This document shows, piece after piece, positions 3,092-20,894 of a DNA stretch of 35,492 nucleotides. The notes under the pieces were generated by a model. It did not search any database. It was not told the origin of the DNA and worked only from the letters and a program-made list of their open reading frames with translations. Where the stretch lies: assembly GCA_021841985.1 (NCBI GenBank), contig JAKCCP010000198.1, positions 1 through 35,492 of the forward strand. The letters run 5' to 3'. Position 1 is the first letter of the stretch, and each line of letters starts with the position of its first letter. Position numbers and translations under genes: made by a program. Source of the DNA: Pseudomonadota bacterium (GTDB lineage: Bacteria; Pseudomonadota; Alphaproteobacteria; Acetobacterales; Acetobacteraceae).

Positions 3092-3287
3092 GGCGGGACG
3101 CGAAAGCGGCGGGCGCGGGCGGCGGGCGAGACGTCTCTGGTGATCGGCATGGGTTGCGGGGGAATAGCGCTTTCCTTATGGTGCAGGCACTTTTAGGGGG
3201 CTGAGACCCGACGCGCAACGCGCTCTCGCGCTGGCGTGGGGGTTCAAGCTTGGCAAACGCAATGTGCTCGATCGGGGTTCTCGCCGT

Positions 3288-4295
3288 ATGGACAGTATGG
3301 AAGTCAACAAAGCACTCGCGGCCATCCTGGTGGCGGGAATCGCCTATTCGCTTGCCGGCGTGATCGCCGACGGGCTGGTGCACCCCCAGGAGCTGAAAGA
3401 AAGCGCGATCAAGATCGAGGGAGTGCCGGCGGCGACCGAGAGCGCCCCGGCGCAGCCCACGGGCCCGGCGCCGATCGCCGCCCTGCTCGCCTCGGCGAGC
3501 CCGGAGAAGGGTGAGCAGGACGTACAGAAACTCTGCACCGTGTGCCATACCTTTGCTGAGGGCCAGCCGGCCAAGGTCGGGCCCAATCTCTACGGCATTA
3601 TCGGCGCGCCACGCGCCCACATGGCCGGGTTCGACTATTCCGACGGCTTGAAAAAACTCGGTGGCACCTGGAACTACGAGGAACTCAACCATTGGCTCTA
3701 TGACCCGCGCGAGGTGGTGCCGGGCACCCGCATGGCCTTCGCCGGCATCAAGAACGACGCCGAGCGCGCCGATGTCATCGCCTATTTGCGCACGCTCTCG
3801 AAAAACCCCAGATCGGAGCCCAAGGTCGAGCCAGCGGCAGCGACCAGCGCCGCTGCTCCCGCCGCCGGCGCCGCGGCGGCACCGGCAGGGCCGGATTTCG
3901 CGACCTTGGTGGCGGCCGCCGATCCGGCGAAAGGCAAGGCCGATGCCGAGAAGCTCTGCACCGTCTGCCATTCCTTCGGCAAGGGTGAGCCGGCCAAGAT
4001 CGGCCCTAATCTCTACGGCATCGTCGGCGCGGCGCGCGCCCACATGGCCGGGTTCGACTATTCCGACGGTTTGAAAAAACTCGGCGGCACGTGGAACGAC
4101 GACGAACTCAACGCCTGGCTTACCAACCCGCGTGACGTGGTTTCGGGCACCCGCATGGCGTTTGCCGGCATCAAGAGCGAGAAGGAGCGCGCCGAGGTCG
4201 TGGCCTATCTGCGCAGCATCTCGCCCGAGGCGCCACCTTTGGCCAAGGCCGGCGCCGCGGCGCCGGAGAAGCCGGCCGAGCCGGAGAAGAAATAG
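3288..4295 (+). CDS. Membrane-anchored di-heme cytochrome c (duplicated domain)
   Basis: The protein has an N-terminal hydrophobic segment (about residues 7-25), likely an uncleaved anchor that places it on the periplasmic face, then an Ala/Pro linker and two class I cytochrome c domains. Heme-binding motifs are CTVCH at residues 83-87 and CTVCH at 224-228, exactly 141 codons apart. Each domain has a PGTRMAFAG or SGTRMAFAG segment that supplies the axial methionine. The two domains are about 70 percent identical and are joined by a second Ala/Pro-rich linker. I chose the ATG at 3288 (MDSMEVN) because the in-frame GTG at 3264 adds only a charged tail with no ribosome site. Single-domain relatives resemble mitochondrial-type or membrane-bound c552 electron carriers to terminal oxidases. 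The exact partner is unknown. Confidence 0.9.
   Translation: MDSMEVNKALAAILVAGIAYSLAGVIADGLVHPQELKESAIKIEGVPAATESAPAQPTGPAPIAALLASASPEKGEQDVQKLCTVCHTFAEGQPAKVGPNLYGIIGAPRAHMAGFDYSDGLKKLGGTWNYEELNHWLYDPREVVPGTRMAFAGIKNDAERADVIAYLRTLSKNPRSEPKVEPAAATSAAAPAAGAAAAPAGPDFATLVAAADPAKGKADAEKLCTVCHSFGKGEPAKIGPNLYGIVGAARAHMAGFDYSDGLKKLGGTWNDDELNAWLTNPRDVVSGTRMAFAGIKSEKERAEVVAYLRSISPEAPPLAKAGAAAPEKPAEPEKK
3612..4090. repeat. Internal tandem duplication in the cytochrome c gene
   Basis: The two heme domains are a direct repeat with a period of 423 bases. The best conserved block is 3612-3667 against 4035-4090: 56 bases with two differences, both silent. The first 35 bases are identical. Flanking parts of the domains have diverged more, so this block is either under strong constraint or has been homogenised by gene conversion. 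Confidence 0.85.
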
Positions 4296-14181: not shown

Positions 14182-14346
14182 AATTTAACCCCTCAATGCT
14201 CTTTACGCGGCGAGGGTGAGCATGCTCTGATATGTTGGAGGCGTGGATCGGGCGGCGTGCTGTTTCAAGCTCGCCGAGCTGGTCCATCTCTCTCATGCGC
14301 CGATCAATGCGGTGCGCGGACAACCAATCAGGGGAGACGTTTTGGA

Positions 14347-16107
14347 ATGGATCGCAACAGAAGCCGCCTGTTCGGCGGATGTGCTTTGGGCCTGGTGCTG
14401 GCGCTAGGCCTCATGGGAAAACCCGCGGGGGCCCAGGATGTCACCGATCAGCGACTCTTGAACGCCGATCAGGAAGAAGGCAACTGGATCCTTCATCATA
14501 AAGACTATTCCGCCCAGCGCTTCTCCACGCTCAATCAGATCAACGCCGGCAACGTCAAGGATCTGCGGGTTGCCTGGACGCTGCAATTGGGTGGCGTCGA
14601 GGGCGGCGGCATCTGGTCGCATGGTGGGCTCGAAGGCACGCCGCTCGCCGAGAACGGCTTTCTCTATGTCACCGATGGCTGGGGCTCGCTCTACAAGATC
14701 GACACCCATGGCGGCCAGGGCATGCTGATGTGGAAGATGGATCCCAAGACCGACCATGACTGGGCTGGCGCCATCGCCTGCTGCGGCGTCGATAACCGCG
14801 GCGCGGCCTTCTGGCACAATCTTGTCGTCACCCACACCCTCGACGGGCGGCTGATCGCCACCGACAAGGAAACCGGCAAGATCCTCTGGCAGCGCCAGGT
14901 CGCCAACCCCGACAAGGGCGAGGTCGTCACCGGCGCGCCGCTGGTCGTCCATGACATGGCGATCACCGGGGTCGCCGGCGCCGAATACGGGATCCGCGGC
15001 TGGATCGCCGCGACCGATCTCAATACCCACCAGGAACTCTGGCGCACCTATACCATCCCGGCCAAGGGCGAGCCGGGCAGCGAAACCTGGAAGGATGATC
15101 ACGACGCCCTGGCCACCGGAGGCGGCTCGACCTGGGTCACCGGCAGCTACGATCCCGCCACCGATACCATCGTCTGGGGGGTCGGCAATCCGGGGCCGGA
15201 TTGGGACAACGCCTATCGTCCCGGCGATAACCTCTATACCGACAGCACGCTCGGGCTTGACGCTAAAACCGGCCAGATCAAATGGCATTTCCAGCACACG
15301 CCGAACGATCCGTTCGACTATGACAGCGTCGCCGAAAATGTTCTGGTCGATGTCAACGGCCAGAAACTCGCCCTCGAAGCGGATCGCAATGGCGTCGGCT
15401 ATGCCGTCGATCGCACCAACGGCAAGTTCGTCTGGGCGCTGCCCTTCGTGAAGCAGTTCACCTGGACCAAGGGGATCGATCCCACCACCGGCCGGCCGGT
15501 CGATTACGACCCGAGCAAGGGGGTTCAGACCTATGTCGCCTCGGTGACGCCGAGCCGCACGAACAAAGTGACGACGATTTGCCCGGGCAATATGGGCGGC
15601 AAGAACTGGCCACCGACCGCCTACAACCCGACCCTTCATCTTTGGTACATCCCGGTCATCGAGAGCTGTAACCGCATCACCGTCGAGGAGACGATACCTG
15701 GTAAATCCTTCAAGTCGCGTGAATTCTTCACCGGCGGCGGGCCAAGCGATCCGATCCGCATCACCGGCAGCGTCACCGCGATCGACGTCACCACCGGAAA
15801 GATGGCGGGCAAGGCGGAAACCCCCTATCCGATGCTGGGCGGCCTGCTCGCCACGCCCGATCTCGTCTTTGCCGGTCAGCCCGACGGCAAGGTGATGGCG
15901 CTCGATGCCAAATCGCTTGCCACGCTCTGGGAATTTAACACCGGCGGCGGTGTCAGCGCGCCCCCGATGACGTTCACCGTGGATGGCAAGCAATATATTG
16001 CTCTCTTGGTCGGCCAGGGCGGTGCGTGGGACAAGTGGTTCATCGATTCGACCCCTGATCTCAAGCGTATCGCGCCGGGTTCGACGCTCTACGTCTTCCG
16101 GCTGTAA
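14347..16107 (+). CDS. PQQ-dependent alcohol dehydrogenase, lanthanide-type
   Basis: This periplasmic quinoprotein of 586 residues is in the methanol/ethanol dehydrogenase family and oxidises primary alcohols with electrons passed to cytochrome c. A signal peptide (about residues 1-36, ending at PAGAQDV) precedes an eight-bladed beta-propeller. Visible active-site features are the vicinal cysteines Cys145-Cys146 (ACCGVDNRGAAFW), metal-site Glu213 (AGAEYGIRG), Asn281 (GVGNPGPDW) and the catalytic Asp324 in DPFDYDSV. Asp326, two residues after the catalytic Asp, is the extra ligand found in lanthanide-dependent XoxF and PedH/ExaF; calcium enzymes have Ala or Ser there. No cytochrome domain is fused, so it is not a quinohemoprotein. 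I chose ATG 14347 because AGGGGAG lies upstream and the signal peptide begins there. The substrate (methanol or longer alcohols) is not settled. Confidence 0.92.
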   Translation: MDRNRSRLFGGCALGLVLALGLMGKPAGAQDVTDQRLLNADQEEGNWILHHKDYSAQRFSTLNQINAGNVKDLRVAWTLQLGGVEGGGIWSHGGLEGTPLAENGFLYVTDGWGSLYKIDTHGGQGMLMWKMDPKTDHDWAGAIACCGVDNRGAAFWHNLVVTHTLDGRLIATDKETGKILWQRQVANPDKGEVVTGAPLVVHDMAITGVAGAEYGIRGWIAATDLNTHQELWRTYTIPAKGEPGSETWKDDHDALATGGGSTWVTGSYDPATDTIVWGVGNPGPDWDNAYRPGDNLYTDSTLGLDAKTGQIKWHFQHTPNDPFDYDSVAENVLVDVNGQKLALEADRNGVGYAVDRTNGKFVWALPFVKQFTWTKGIDPTTGRPVDYDPSKGVQTYVASVTPSRTNKVTTICPGNMGGKNWPPTAYNPTLHLWYIPVIESCNRITVEETIPGKSFKSREFFTGGGPSDPIRITGSVTAIDVTTGKMAGKAETPYPMLGGLLATPDLVFAGQPDGKVMALDAKSLATLWEFNTGGGVSAPPMTFTVDGKQYIALLVGQGGAWDKWFIDSTPDLKRIAPGSTLYVFRL

Positions 16108-17393: not shown

Positions 17394-18710
17394 ATGCCTC
17401 TCGGGCATGATCCTTCGATGCTCGATGATCTGAGCGAGATCGCGGCCTCACAGCCGGCGGAACGCGCGCTGCTGGAAACCGTGCGCCGGGTGCTGCGCCG
17501 GCCTTCCGGCTGGGTGGCGCTGGTGCTGCACCTGTCGCGTCTTGCCGACCGCCGGCCCTATCACGGCCGTATCGCCCGCGCCTTGCTCGTCGAGGCGGTG
17601 CCACGCGGCGGCGGCGAGATCCACGCGCTGAGCAACGGCGATCTGCTGCTGTTCTGTGACGCCCATGAGCCCTCGCCGGTGCGCCTGCTGGAGCGGCTGT
17701 TTCCGTCCGCCCTCATCTCCTTGTGGCGCCTGGAGACCGACGCGCTCGATCTCATCGCCTATGCCGCCGGGCGCCTGACCGAAATGCCGGTCGCGCCGCC
17801 GCCCCCTACGCCGCATGCCGCGGCTGAGCCGGCAGCGCGAGTGCCGGAACTCTTCGCCGAACGCGATGCGATCGGGCCGCAAATGGTCGCCGGCCTGTTT
17901 CACCGCCAGAGCGGGCTTCGTCTCATCCAGGGCGGCATGCAGCTCGCCTTTCGTGATCTTACCCCCGATCTGGCACGGCTCACCGCCCGCGCTCCCGAGG
18001 CCGAGGGAGCGCTCAGCGATACCGCTCTCCGCCGCCACTACCTGGCCGCCCTCGACCCGCCACTGCTCGCCGCGCTGAGTGCTGCCCTCGGAAGCTTTTC
18101 GCCGCTCGATATCGCCGCCCCGCGCCTGGAAGCAACGCTCCATCTGCCGCTCTCGCTCCCAGGCGTGCTGAGCGAAGGATTTGCCCATCTCGCCGCACAA
18201 AGCCGCCGCGCCGGGGTGCGGCTTGGCATCAAGCTCGATCTTGCCGAGGCCCTGACCGACGCCGTGGCGCTGGAAGCGGCGCGCGGCGTCATCGCCGAAG
18301 CGGGGGCGCGCTTCGTGCTCGCGGGCGTGGCCGCGGCGACGCTCGCTTGCTTCACCCCGGCGGCGCTGGCGCCCGATCTGCTGCTGCTCGATTACAGCCC
18401 CGATCTCGCGGAAATTACCCCTGACGCGGCACGTTTCTTTGGCCCGCGCGGCCCCGCTCGTGTCGCCCTGCGCCAAGCCGACAGCGAGGCGGCACTGGCC
18501 TGGGGGGTAGCGCGCGGGATCACCTTGTTCCAGGGCCGCCATGTTGAGGCCATGCTGGGGGCGGCGCGCATGCTGGGCTGCCCGGACGCGCGGGCCTGCA
18601 CGCTCGGCCAGTGCATCGCCCGCGCCGGCGCGCTCGAGCCGGCGGGGCGTTTCGGCTGTACCCGCCCGGCCTTGCTCGACGGGATCGGCCGGCCGCGGGC
18701 GGCGGCATGA
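17394..18710 (+). CDS. Degenerate GGDEF-EAL-like protein A
   Basis: This is a cytoplasmic protein of up to 438 residues with no membrane helix. The N-terminal part (about residues 30-125) has the hydrophobic pattern of a worn GGDEF domain, with EIHALSNGDLLLFCD where GGDEF proteins have their active-site hairpin. After a Pro/Ala-rich linker (about 130-150), the C-terminal half (about 245-420) follows an EAL domain: a LHLPLSLPGVL strand, RRAGVRLGIKLDL, PDLLLLDYSPDL, and finally WGVARGITLFQGRHVEAM, comparable to the GCDLVQGYLFSRP end of EAL domains. The catalytic EAL Glu and the metal-binding DDFGTG motif are absent, so it should not degrade c-di-GMP. The start is uncertain (17394 or 17418). It overlaps its downstream relative by four bases. 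The fold assignment is inference. Confidence 0.6.
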   Translation: MPLGHDPSMLDDLSEIAASQPAERALLETVRRVLRRPSGWVALVLHLSRLADRRPYHGRIARALLVEAVPRGGGEIHALSNGDLLLFCDAHEPSPVRLLERLFPSALISLWRLETDALDLIAYAAGRLTEMPVAPPPPTPHAAAEPAARVPELFAERDAIGPQMVAGLFHRQSGLRLIQGGMQLAFRDLTPDLARLTARAPEAEGALSDTALRRHYLAALDPPLLAALSAALGSFSPLDIAAPRLEATLHLPLSLPGVLSEGFAHLAAQSRRAGVRLGIKLDLAEALTDAVALEAARGVIAEAGARFVLAGVAAATLACFTPAALAPDLLLLDYSPDLAEITPDAARFFGPRGPARVALRQADSEAALAWGVARGITLFQGRHVEAMLGAARMLGCPDARACTLGQCIARAGALEPAGRFGCTRPALLDGIGRPRAAA

Positions 18711-19879
18711 ACGCGATCGGGTTTTCTGCCTGGACCAGCACTGCCGAGGCGCCGGCGGCGCTGGCAAGCGTAGTGCAATCCTGCGTCACGGCCGGGATCA
18801 AGCGTCAGGCGTTGATCCTCAGGCTTGGCCGGCTGCCGTCCGCCTGTATCCGGCCGCACCATCTGCGGTTGTTTCGCGCCGCCCTCGACCCTCTGCTCGA
18901 TGCCGACCGGGCGAGCGCTTTCCGCCTGCCCGACGAGACCGTGGTGGTGGTTTGGCGCGGGGCGGCGGAAAAACTTCTCGCCCGCGCGCTCGCCGCCGTG
19001 CGCCACCTCCTCGCCGATATGCCGGCGCAACTGCCGCCCTGGGAGCAACTTGCGGAAGTGACCACCCTGCCCGCGAGCGCCGAGCCGATGCTGCGCCTGA
19101 TCGCCGAGAGCGAGCCGGCGGCCGGCGGCGTGGTGGGAACAGGCACCAGCGGGCCCCGCCTTGCGCCACTTGACGCTAAATTGCTCGAAAGCCTTGAGCG
19201 CAGCCTAGCGCAGACCGATCTCTCCTCTTTCGTCCGACGCCGGCCGGTCTGCCGCCTCGATGAACAGGGCGTGATGCATCTGCAATGGGAGGAGCGGGGC
19301 CTCGCGCTCGACGATCTCGCCGCCATGCTTGTGCCCGGCAGAAGCCTCACCGCTGATCCCTGGCTGTTTCTGCGCCTCGCCCGCACCCTCGACCGCCGCC
19401 TGCTCACGCTGCTGAGCGAGCCCGCCGAACTCCGCCATGCGTCGCCCTTCGCGCTGGATCTGACCCTTGAGGGCCTGCTCGGGGCCGAATTCCTCCGCTT
19501 CGACGCCACCTTGCCGGCGAGCCTGCGCGGCGGTGTCGTGATCAATCTCCGCGCCGCCGACCTCCTGGCCGACGGGGCGGCCTTTTCCTTCGCCCGCGAT
19601 TTCGCCCATGCGCGCCACTACCGCATCGCGCTGCACGGCGCGACGCCCCACCTGTTGGCGGCGTTTTCGGTGCGGCCAGGCGCGATCGATCTCGCCCAGA
19701 TCCGCTTCACGCCAGGTCGCGCGACGTTCGAACTCCCCCCAGCCGTCGATCCGGCCTCAGTCGTGCTCGCCGACACCGACACGCCGGCCGCCCTGGAGCG
19801 CGGGCGCGCCGCCGGGATCCGCCTGTTCAAGGGGGCGCTGGCCCGCCCGAACGACCCCGCCGCCACATTTACATTCTGA
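18707..19879 (+). CDS. Degenerate GGDEF-EAL-like protein B
   Basis: This 390-residue protein looks like a distant paralog of the one before it. The N-terminal part (residues 1-115) has a GGDEF-like pattern around AFRLPDETVVVVWRG. A middle helical region follows, and the C-terminal part (about 205-380) is EAL-like: VVINLRAADLL resembles the INLS strand of EAL domains, RHYRIALHG corresponds to the next strand, and GIRLFKGALARP matches the closing GxxxxQGxxxxxP loop. As in protein A, no EAL motif or metal-binding Asp pair is visible. The start ATG lies in the stop of protein A (ATGA, 18707-18710), implying equal synthesis and probably a complex. The fold assignment is inference; I know of no named family. 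Confidence 0.6.
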   Translation: MNAIGFSAWTSTAEAPAALASVVQSCVTAGIKRQALILRLGRLPSACIRPHHLRLFRAALDPLLDADRASAFRLPDETVVVVWRGAAEKLLARALAAVRHLLADMPAQLPPWEQLAEVTTLPASAEPMLRLIAESEPAAGGVVGTGTSGPRLAPLDAKLLESLERSLAQTDLSSFVRRRPVCRLDEQGVMHLQWEERGLALDDLAAMLVPGRSLTADPWLFLRLARTLDRRLLTLLSEPAELRHASPFALDLTLEGLLGAEFLRFDATLPASLRGGVVINLRAADLLADGAAFSFARDFAHARHYRIALHGATPHLLAAFSVRPGAIDLAQIRFTPGRATFELPPAVDPASVVLADTDTPAALERGRAAGIRLFKGALARPNDPAATFTF

Positions 19880-20000
19880 TTTTTGACGTTCGATTTCCGC
19901 TACGCCAAGCCCATGGCGGCGGCGCGGCATGGTTTTTCCGCTCCCAGTGCGTATATCCCACAATGGAAAACCATCGCGAGTAGGAAATCGGTATTCCAGC

Positions 20001-20894
20001 ATGAAGCGTTTTCTAACCGTTTTGGGGCTGCTCGCCGTTATCGGCGTGATGACGGGGCTCGTCTCCTATTCGGTGACGATCTACCGGTTGTTCTGTGCCG
20101 TGACTGGCGCCGGCGGCACCACCCAGCGGGTCGATGCCGACACCGCGAAGCCCATCGCGCGCACGGTCACGGTATTTTTCAACACCGATGTCGCTCCCGG
20201 CCTGCCTTGGCGTTTCGTGCCCGCGCAAGCCTCGGTGAAGGTCCATCTGGGTGAGCAGGCTTTGGTCTATTTCGAGGCGGAAAACCTCTCTGATCAGGAT
20301 ATTATCGGCCATGCCACGTTCAACGTGACCCCCGACAAGGCCGGCATCTATTTCAAGAAAATCCAGTGCTTCTGCTTCACCGAGGAAAAGCTTGAAGCGC
20401 ACAAGAAAGTCGAGATGCCGGTGACTTTTTTCGTCGATCCGCGCATGGCCTCGGATCGCGGCACTGCGGATGTCGATCAGATCACGCTTTCCTACACGTT
20501 TTTCCGCTCCGCCCGGCCGGCCGGGGCGGAGGATCTGGCGCGTTTCGGCGATGTGCCGGATGCCAAGGCCGGGGCGGCGCTGTTTGCCAGCCAATGCAGC
20601 GGGTGCCACGCGCCAGAGGAAGCCAAGGCTGGCCCACCGCTCGCCGGGGTGGTGGGGCGCGCGGCGGGGAGTGTCTCGGGCTATCCCTACTCGGTGGCGC
20701 TGGCGCAATCGGGGCTGATCTGGACCGAGACGACGCTCGATCACTGGCTCGCCGGCCCGCAAACCCTGGTGCCGGGCGCATTGATGCCAATGAGCGTGAG
20801 CGATGCCGCGGCGCGGCGCAATATCATCGCCTACCTCAAAACCCTCTCCACCCAAGCCCAGCATGCCGACAGCACACCACCCGCCAAGCCGTAG
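20001..20894 (+). CDS. ctaG: CtaG/Cox11 copper chaperone fused to a cytochrome c domain
   Basis: One uninterrupted frame of 297 residues joins two proteins. Residues 1-172 are a full CtaG/Cox11: an N-terminal membrane helix (about 5-27), IYRLFCAVTGAGGT with Cys32, the copper-binding IQCFCFTEE with Cys123 and Cys125, and LSYTFF at the end of the beta-sandwich. Cox11 delivers copper to the CuB site of heme-copper oxidase subunit I. Residues about 185-285 are a class I cytochrome c: CSGCH at 199-203, GPPLAGVVGR, and VPGALMPMS with Met262 as likely axial ligand. Both domains are on the periplasmic side of the single helix, so the fusion is topologically sound. No oxidase genes are adjacent. The ATG at 20001 is chosen because the Cox11 start is there; the frame extends further upstream without resemblance to anything. 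Confidence 0.9.
   Translation: MKRFLTVLGLLAVIGVMTGLVSYSVTIYRLFCAVTGAGGTTQRVDADTAKPIARTVTVFFNTDVAPGLPWRFVPAQASVKVHLGEQALVYFEAENLSDQDIIGHATFNVTPDKAGIYFKKIQCFCFTEEKLEAHKKVEMPVTFFVDPRMASDRGTADVDQITLSYTFFRSARPAGAEDLARFGDVPDAKAGAALFASQCSGCHAPEEAKAGPPLAGVVGRAAGSVSGYPYSVALAQSGLIWTETTLDHWLAGPQTLVPGALMPMSVSDAAARRNIIAYLKTLSTQAQHADSTPPAKP

Follow-up and report, generated by a model that had tools for sequence, protein, structure and literature searches.

The gene at positions 20001 to 20894 of the window, by which we mean the whole 35,492-nucleotide stretch of Acetobacteraceae DNA analysed here, encodes a complete Cox11/CtaG copper chaperone joined in one frame to a class I cytochrome c domain. Comparison of gene content and gene order among related genomes suggests that this fused Cox11 has very probably replaced the ordinary ctaG of the cta operon. 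There is a roughly even chance that it is a CuB chaperone standing in for ctaG in which the heme serves as a redox-active aid.

The fused gene, cox11-cytc, is a single open frame with an ATG at 20001. The longest possible frame begins at 19929, but the protein recorded in the database for the window has 297 aa, as does the frame that starts at 20001. The gene and the parts of its product are as follows.

20001..20894, + strand: cox11-cytc, fused Cox11/CtaG–cytochrome c gene (297 aa, stop included)
20004..20063, + strand: N-terminal membrane helix, residues 2-21 (AF2 model)
20073..20507, + strand: Cox11/CtaG copper-chaperone domain, residues 25-169 (PF04442; PDB 1so9, E 6.7e-42)
20094..20096, + strand: third conserved Cox11 cysteine, Cys32, adjoining the membrane (invariant, 35/35 aligned)
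20367..20375, + strand: predicted Cys-Phe-Cys copper-binding motif, residues 123-125 (from sequence; invariant, 35/35)
20508..20558, + strand: linker with a conserved LARF signature, residues 170-186 (R181 and F182 invariant)
20559..20849, + strand: class I cytochrome c domain, residues 187-283
20595..20609, + strand: predicted heme-attachment site CSGCH, residues 199-203 (C199, C202 and H203 invariant, 35/35)
20784..20786, + strand: predicted axial methionine ligand, Met262 (M262-P263 invariant, 35/35)

The initial annotation described a full Cox11 and a cytochrome c domain in one frame, with the motifs of both, and profile searches against Pfam and NCBIfam confirmed this layout. The Pfam CtaG_Cox11 profile (PF04442) matched residues 25-169 above its cut-off (E 1.4e-55; 187.8 bits versus a cut-off of 25; profile positions 2-148 of 148), and the NCBIfam Cox11 equivalog profile scored 195.8 bits versus a cut-off of 162. 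Cytochrom_C (PF00034) matched residues 188-283, also above its cut-off (E 7.1e-10). The protein thus combines the full-length profile match, CFC motif, third cysteine and single N-terminal helix of a Cox11/CtaG with the CxxCH motif, C-terminal Met ligand and fold of a class I cytochrome c. The heme half resembles cytochromes c2, c552, cH and cy in both fold and sequence; the structural alignment covered residues 184-285, and the Cox11 fold was assigned with Foldseek. No SCO1/SenC domain was found in the protein by Pfam search at E values up to 1. CcmE, a marker of heme c maturation, was present in all six genomes searched. Proteins of the Cox11 family are described as inner-membrane proteins that face the periplasm, the CXC cysteines binding copper in a dimer (PMC9145763). 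By homology with this family, the part of the fused protein beyond its helix is probably periplasmic.

The architecture is widely conserved. A search with a query containing both domains gave 5512 matches, and the best 120, the window's own included, were taken as relatives. In all 120 of these best-listed matches a CxxCH motif lies 60-100 residues past the CFC motif, and in 119 of them a PGxxM ligand motif stands at the expected place. A sequencing join of two genes was ruled out, since the layout is common to the 119 other listed relatives. Residues C32, C123, C125, C199, C202, H203 and M262 never vary in 35 aligned sequences of the best 120. Values of dN/dS (NG86), obtained for seven of the eight planned pairs, were 0.08-0.20 for the Cox11 half and 0.06-0.27 for the cytochrome half. 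The cytochrome half evolves faster than the Cox11 half in six of the seven pairs; both halves look constrained, with dN/dS well below 1.

The surface of the heme domain was also compared. In mitochondrial-type cytochrome c, a lysine lies just before the Met ligand and is part of the face that docks on the oxidase. No Lys was found at the two positions before Met262 in any of the 35 aligned sequences, and the fused protein does not show the docking-face pattern of an oxidase donor, which includes the lysine just before the Met ligand. Two positions ahead of G211, 34 of the 35 retain a basic residue (Lys or Arg), and the net charge of the cytochrome domain has a median of +1 (range -3 to +4, 35 aligned).

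The copy number of Cox11 was surveyed in 150 genomes of the family, of which 95 carry Cox11, with 97 copies in total. All 97 were obtained with flanking DNA; 71 are ordinary, without the heme motif, and 26 belong to the fused clade, which bears the motif KKI/V[QE]CFCF (NKIQCFCF in G079). The heme domain is present in 23 of these 26. In two genomes of genus g50 (G050 and G129), the same chaperone ends at a stop just past the linker and has no heme domain, which from the sequences looks like a secondary loss; the copy of G140 (L110) is truncated by its contig end. Of the 23 family genomes whose fusion is intact, 21 yielded no further Cox11; 13 of these 21 are drafts at least 90% complete. Both types are present in G056 and G079. 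Whether the two types exclude each other was assessed by a Fisher test that ignores relatedness (counts 2, 69, 24 and 55; p 5.6e-6).

Sole-copy status for the window is judged from near relatives such as G001, the nearest genome, which shares 67% of the window's sampled 31-letter words and whose fused protein is 99% identical to the window's over both domains. At 99% completeness, this genome has a single Cox11, which is the fused protein. In its cta operon, ctaC-ctaD-ctaB-ctaE-surf1, the slot for ctaG is empty and the ctaB-ctaE gap is 289 bp. G087, too, has one Cox11 and an empty slot, and the fusion is also carried by a culturable relative, Lichenicoccus roseus (L012). The ordinary operon has the order ctaC-ctaD-ctaB-COX11-ctaE-surf1 (domains checked at one locus). 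A second copy beside a normal ctaG was therefore ruled out for G001, and the suggestion in the initial annotation of a second, specialised copy was not supported, 21 of 23 family genomes having likewise yielded no other Cox11.

As for gene order, ordinary Cox11 sits alongside cta genes in 71 of 71 copies, whereas the fused-clade Cox11 stands apart from them (0 of 26 copies), up to 9.5 kb having been inspected on each side and less at contig ends. No cta gene was seen in the flanking stretches examined around the fused gene, and its position outside the cta operon, already pointed out in the initial annotation, was thus borne out across the clade. It is not located between ctaB and ctaE, as an operonic ctaG is, and it belongs to a separate clade. 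The oxidase loci of 23 of the 26 fused-clade family genomes were examined (G095, G146 and G111 among them; the operon of G056 is in L149, and G013 and G035 gave no oxidase locus or a fragment). All 63 ordinary loci having both genes showed a ctaB-ctaE gap of 759-2570 bp with Cox11 inside. The gap was 189-551 bp and without Cox11 in all 13 fused-clade genomes in which a single contig carries the two genes; 11 of these bear the heme domain and two are of genus g50. The empty slot and short gap indicate that the ordinary gene is gone and that the fused gene stands in for it. From this comparative evidence, it is very likely that the fused Cox11 replaced the ordinary ctaG of the cta operon.

A canonical aa3 subunit I, defined for this analysis as a match of at least 530 bits to PF00115, was found in seven of seven ordinary, 18 of 26 fused-clade and one of 15 Cox11-less genomes. 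It was not found in G065, G131, G081, G095, G146, G111, G013 and G035, some of which are incomplete drafts; in these eight fused-clade genomes the client of the chaperone may therefore differ. The fused copy is the sole Cox11 found in G065 and G131. The gene order in these two genomes (L263, L264) reads like ACIII followed by a caa3-type oxidase. In the 94%-complete draft G024 (L326), the aa3 operon has an empty slot and a gap of 272 bp, and no Cox11 was found in the draft; this reflects either missing data or Cox11-free assembly.

In a tree of the Cox11 domain, the fused kind forms one clade (ultrafast bootstrap 100, SH-aLRT 97) and the ordinary kind of the family a separate one (100/98), the bootstrap not being fully settled. 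The tree has 98 rows, namely 33 of the fused clade, 29 of the class, and 22 of the 71 ordinary family copies and 14 of the 37 named outside copies, both drawn at random. Two changes of fusion state suffice on it, which we read as probably one gain and one loss, the latter in G050/G129. In a ctaD tree of 45 ordinary and 14 fused-clade rows (without G087, G070 and G024, which gave no usable ctaD), the fused-clade genomes cluster, yet four changes are needed versus the ordinary ones. Replacement (gain) or reversal (loss) would thus have happened more than once in the family, and this tree rules out a single clean transfer that was afterwards inherited vertically throughout the family. As to the origin of the heme domain, a tree of 68 rows and few columns needs three changes to separate all fused copies from the rest. 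Few relatives of this domain stand free of a chaperone: 90 candidates gave 18 matches, two of them still bearing Cox11.

The distribution was followed beyond the family, and confinement of the fusion to one family was ruled out by class and phylum surveys. The class survey covered 385 genomes, 326 of which had a match by either half; inspection of 30 listed loci gave at least one further fused copy, in G473, split by a run of N. The phylum survey covered 398 genomes, 213 with Cox11; inspection took in 30 listed loci and 13 additional long frames (18 regions, of which five are class-level; the other listed matches were judged by frame length), and at least one fused copy was found, in G625. In the alphaproteobacterial family of G625 (f171), seven of 119 genomes carry a fused copy, six of them full length; the copy of G986 lies in two frames, and G968 has a further partial match. 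An ordinary copy accompanies the fused one in G625, G936, G957, G968, G986 and G995, and for G998 there was no ordinary Cox11 among the matches listed. The fused Cox11 is a second copy in G473 and in at least six of the seven f171 carriers. These copies belong to a side branch, subtype B, which consists mostly of second copies in f171 and also occurs in G079. The fusion of the window is of subtype A.

A subtype B fusion is also borne by plasmid pBAL398.3 of Rhodopseudomonas sp. BAL398, which is typed as conjugative; this copy is the one on contig C4 of G936, the coordinates being in agreement. The gene order there is c-type cytochrome, SCO, PCu(A)C, fused Cox11, DsbA family and CcdA, and genes for a multicopper oxidase, DUF411, DsbE, TlpA and CusA are nearby. 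Profiles confirmed SCO1-SenC, PCuAC, Cox11 with cytochrome c, DSBA with ScsC_N, and DsbD_TM. The set (L412 2490-13109) looks like a portable copper-delivery and thiol-redox kit. In G986, PCuAC lies immediately upstream of the fused gene, and in G079 (L112) a DSBA/ScsC_N gene adjoins the fused copy and is followed by MerR, an HMA protein and a P-type ATPase with HMA. An MbnB-like protein is also found near this second, fused Cox11 of G079 (L112 2671-7897). No Sco, PCuAC, DsbA or CcdA was seen near the fused copies of G625, G473, G957, G968, G995 and G998, some of these stretches being short; in all, no copper or thiol neighbours were seen in these stretches for six of the nine subtype B genomes examined. 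In two genomes of different families, the fused copy has a gene for a ClC-type chloride channel in its vicinity (G625, L373 12440-14254; G473, L327 8427-9128).

For subtype A, 25 family loci were tested, of which two have Sco and none PCuAC, DsbA or CcdA. In three relatives, L103, L107 (the L003 contig) and L005, Sco lies two genes downstream of the fused gene, the order on one strand being fused gene, ribonucleotide reductase small chain, Sco. These regions are located as follows.

L103 7304-9001: ribonucleotide reductase small chain, between the fused Cox11 and Sco
L107 7294-8988: the same region
L005 1446-3200: the same region

In the window and in G001, the next downstream gene encodes an AMP-binding enzyme on the opposite strand. 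The window holds another cytochrome gene, separate from the fusion.

3264..4292, + strand: membrane-anchored tandem cytochrome c552-like protein (two Cytochrom_C stretches)

The best PDB match of this protein is Paracoccus c552 (3m97, E 1e-26), and its two cytochrome domains are 68% alike; single-domain c552/cy is the usual form. It is likely an ordinary electron donor of the aa3 oxidase. In G001, cytochrome c domains occur at 16 places, counting that of the fusion, and the fusion was thus ruled out as the only c-type cytochrome of the cell.

Several experiments on relatives bear on the function of the fused protein. Caulobacter without CtaG loses aa3 activity, and added copper is reported to be of no help (PMC12617631). 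In R. sphaeroides, PCuAC is reported to deliver copper to Sco and Cox11 (PMC9145763), and Cox11 family proteins are described as carriers of Cu(I) (PMC9145763, PMC6696091). These experiments, together with the sole-copy status, suggest that the fused protein may bind Cu(I) as a dimer and load the CuB site in subunit I.

On the tree and gene order described above, a Cox11 lineage fused once to a cytochrome c2-like domain and very probably took the place of the ordinary ctaG. A possible mechanism can be proposed. Anchored in the inner membrane, the protein would expose both domains to the periplasm. PCuAC/Sco would supply copper to the CFC site, and the heme, having been reduced through the respiratory chain, would give single electrons that convert Cu(II) to Cu(I) while the CFC thiolates capture the copper. 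The Cu(I) would then be handed to the CuB site in subunit I of the aa3 oxidase. The tethered heme would in this way link copper loading to periplasmic electron flow, and it may be most helpful where Cu(II) is the form met, i.e. at oxic, metal-rich sites.

The initial annotation had proposed that the heme could keep the copper or the CFC cysteines reduced. The potential of a class I cytochrome c is high, far above that of a disulfide, and reduction of protein disulfides is therefore not expected; this part of the proposal is doubtful. Its other part is feasible, since a class I cytochrome c can reduce Cu(II) if thiolates trap the Cu(I). The heme is an aid to CuB delivery and not a necessity, since in genus g50 a chaperone without the heme domain is found while the ctaG slot is empty. 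A stronger version, in which the protein is a respiration-powered CuB metallochaperone that reduces its own copper and makes oxidase assembly dependent on electron flow, the plasmid module being a portable copper-oxidase kit under copper stress, is put forward tentatively and has less than an even chance of being right.

Other functions of the heme domain were considered. It might hold the chaperone by the oxidase or the bc1 complex without any copper chemistry. Such a docking aid would fit a domain that resembles, in fold and sequence, carriers that dock on oxidases (cytochromes c2, c552, cH and cy), and a physical tether could help a gene product encoded outside the cta operon. It is nevertheless unlikely, because the lysine before Met262 is absent from all 35 aligned sequences and the median charge is +1, because mere docking would not need the invariant CxxCH and Met, and because genus g50 dispenses with the heme domain, which also argues against anchoring to the oxidase. 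With the same resemblance to c552/cy in mind, the membrane-anchored heme domain could instead feed electrons to the aa3 oxidase as a surrogate donor, the fusion merely co-localising donor and assembly factor. This is improbable: the tandem c552-like protein at 3264-4292 is a better candidate in the same window, G001 has cytochrome c domains at 16 places, the Met ligand has no lysine ahead of it, and genus g50 does without the domain.

Electrons could also flow the other way, the heme taking them from Cu(I) or thiols to the oxidase and so buffering or detoxifying periplasmic copper. For thiols this direction would be downhill in potential, and some subtype B copies (pBAL398.3, G079) do lie among copper-resistance or thiol-oxidoreductase genes. 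Subtype A, however, is usually the sole Cox11 found and has few such neighbours in the 25 family loci, and the Cox11 family is described as carrying Cu(I) (PMC9145763, PMC6696091); we regard an electron sink as quite unlikely. The least probable case is that of a passive passenger, a chance fusion kept because it is harmless. Loss of the heme domain in one genus and the faster change of the cytochrome half in six of seven pairs would agree with it, but the dN/dS of that half (0.06-0.27), the heme and Met residues invariant in 35 of 35 sequences, and the retention of the fusion in 23 family genomes, with a second subtype in other families, all speak against it.

Among known systems, the Cox11 proteins of Sinorhizobium meliloti (PDB 1so9), Rhodobacter, Paracoccus and Caulobacter have the same end-to-end domain, membrane anchor, CFC motif and third cysteine. 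Unlike the fused protein, the 1so9 Cox11 has no heme domain in the alignment, and those of Rhodobacter, Paracoccus and Caulobacter are not known to have one. The heme half matches the cytochrome c2 of Rhodopila globiformis, Paracoccus c552 and cytochromes cy and cH in fold and sequence; these are electron carriers, whereas here the domain sits on a copper chaperone and has no lysine before its Met ligand. The closest precedent is the Sco–cytochrome c fusion of Pseudomonas putida, for which Banci et al. in 2011 reportedly proposed electron transfer. It likewise joins an oxidase copper chaperone to a class I cytochrome c domain, but Sco has a thioredoxin fold and serves the CuA side, while Cox11 has an immunoglobulin-like fold and serves the CuB side. 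Corynebacterium CtiP (Caa3_CtaG with a CopD domain) is also an oxidase copper assembly factor fused to a copper-related domain; it is however of an unrelated CtaG type with many membrane helices, and the consulted parts of its descriptions mention no heme domain (PMC9145763, PMC13344008).

The initial annotation knew of no described Cox11-cytochrome fusion, and none was found in the open-access literature searched, as far as its accessible text goes. Databases already label such proteins 'cytochrome c oxidase assembly protein Cox11/mono/diheme cytochrome c family protein', and some CtaG genes are reported to sit in isolated clusters (PMC6431628). According to a review, the way in which Cox11 passes on its copper is not well understood (PMC6696091), and human COX11 is reported to have its redox and copper status controlled by other proteins of the cell (PMC9232578). 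A naturally occurring chaperone that brings its own redox cofactor, in genomes that yielded no further Cox11, would offer a direct test of CuB loading, with genus g50, where the heme domain appears to have been lost, as a natural control. The family also provides a probable case of gene replacement in a core respiratory operon, and pBAL398.3, typed as conjugative, carries a cassette for copper delivery.

Some further genes of the window are worth recording. Two neighbouring genes upstream of the fusion, at 17394-18710 and 18611-19876 (+ strand), have no Pfam match; by eye, relatives of the second are present close to the fused Cox11 at L103 10608-11894 and at L005 2-292, the latter being cut by the locus end. 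The gene at 14257-16104 (+ strand) gave a match to a beta-propeller of the PQQ-dehydrogenase type.
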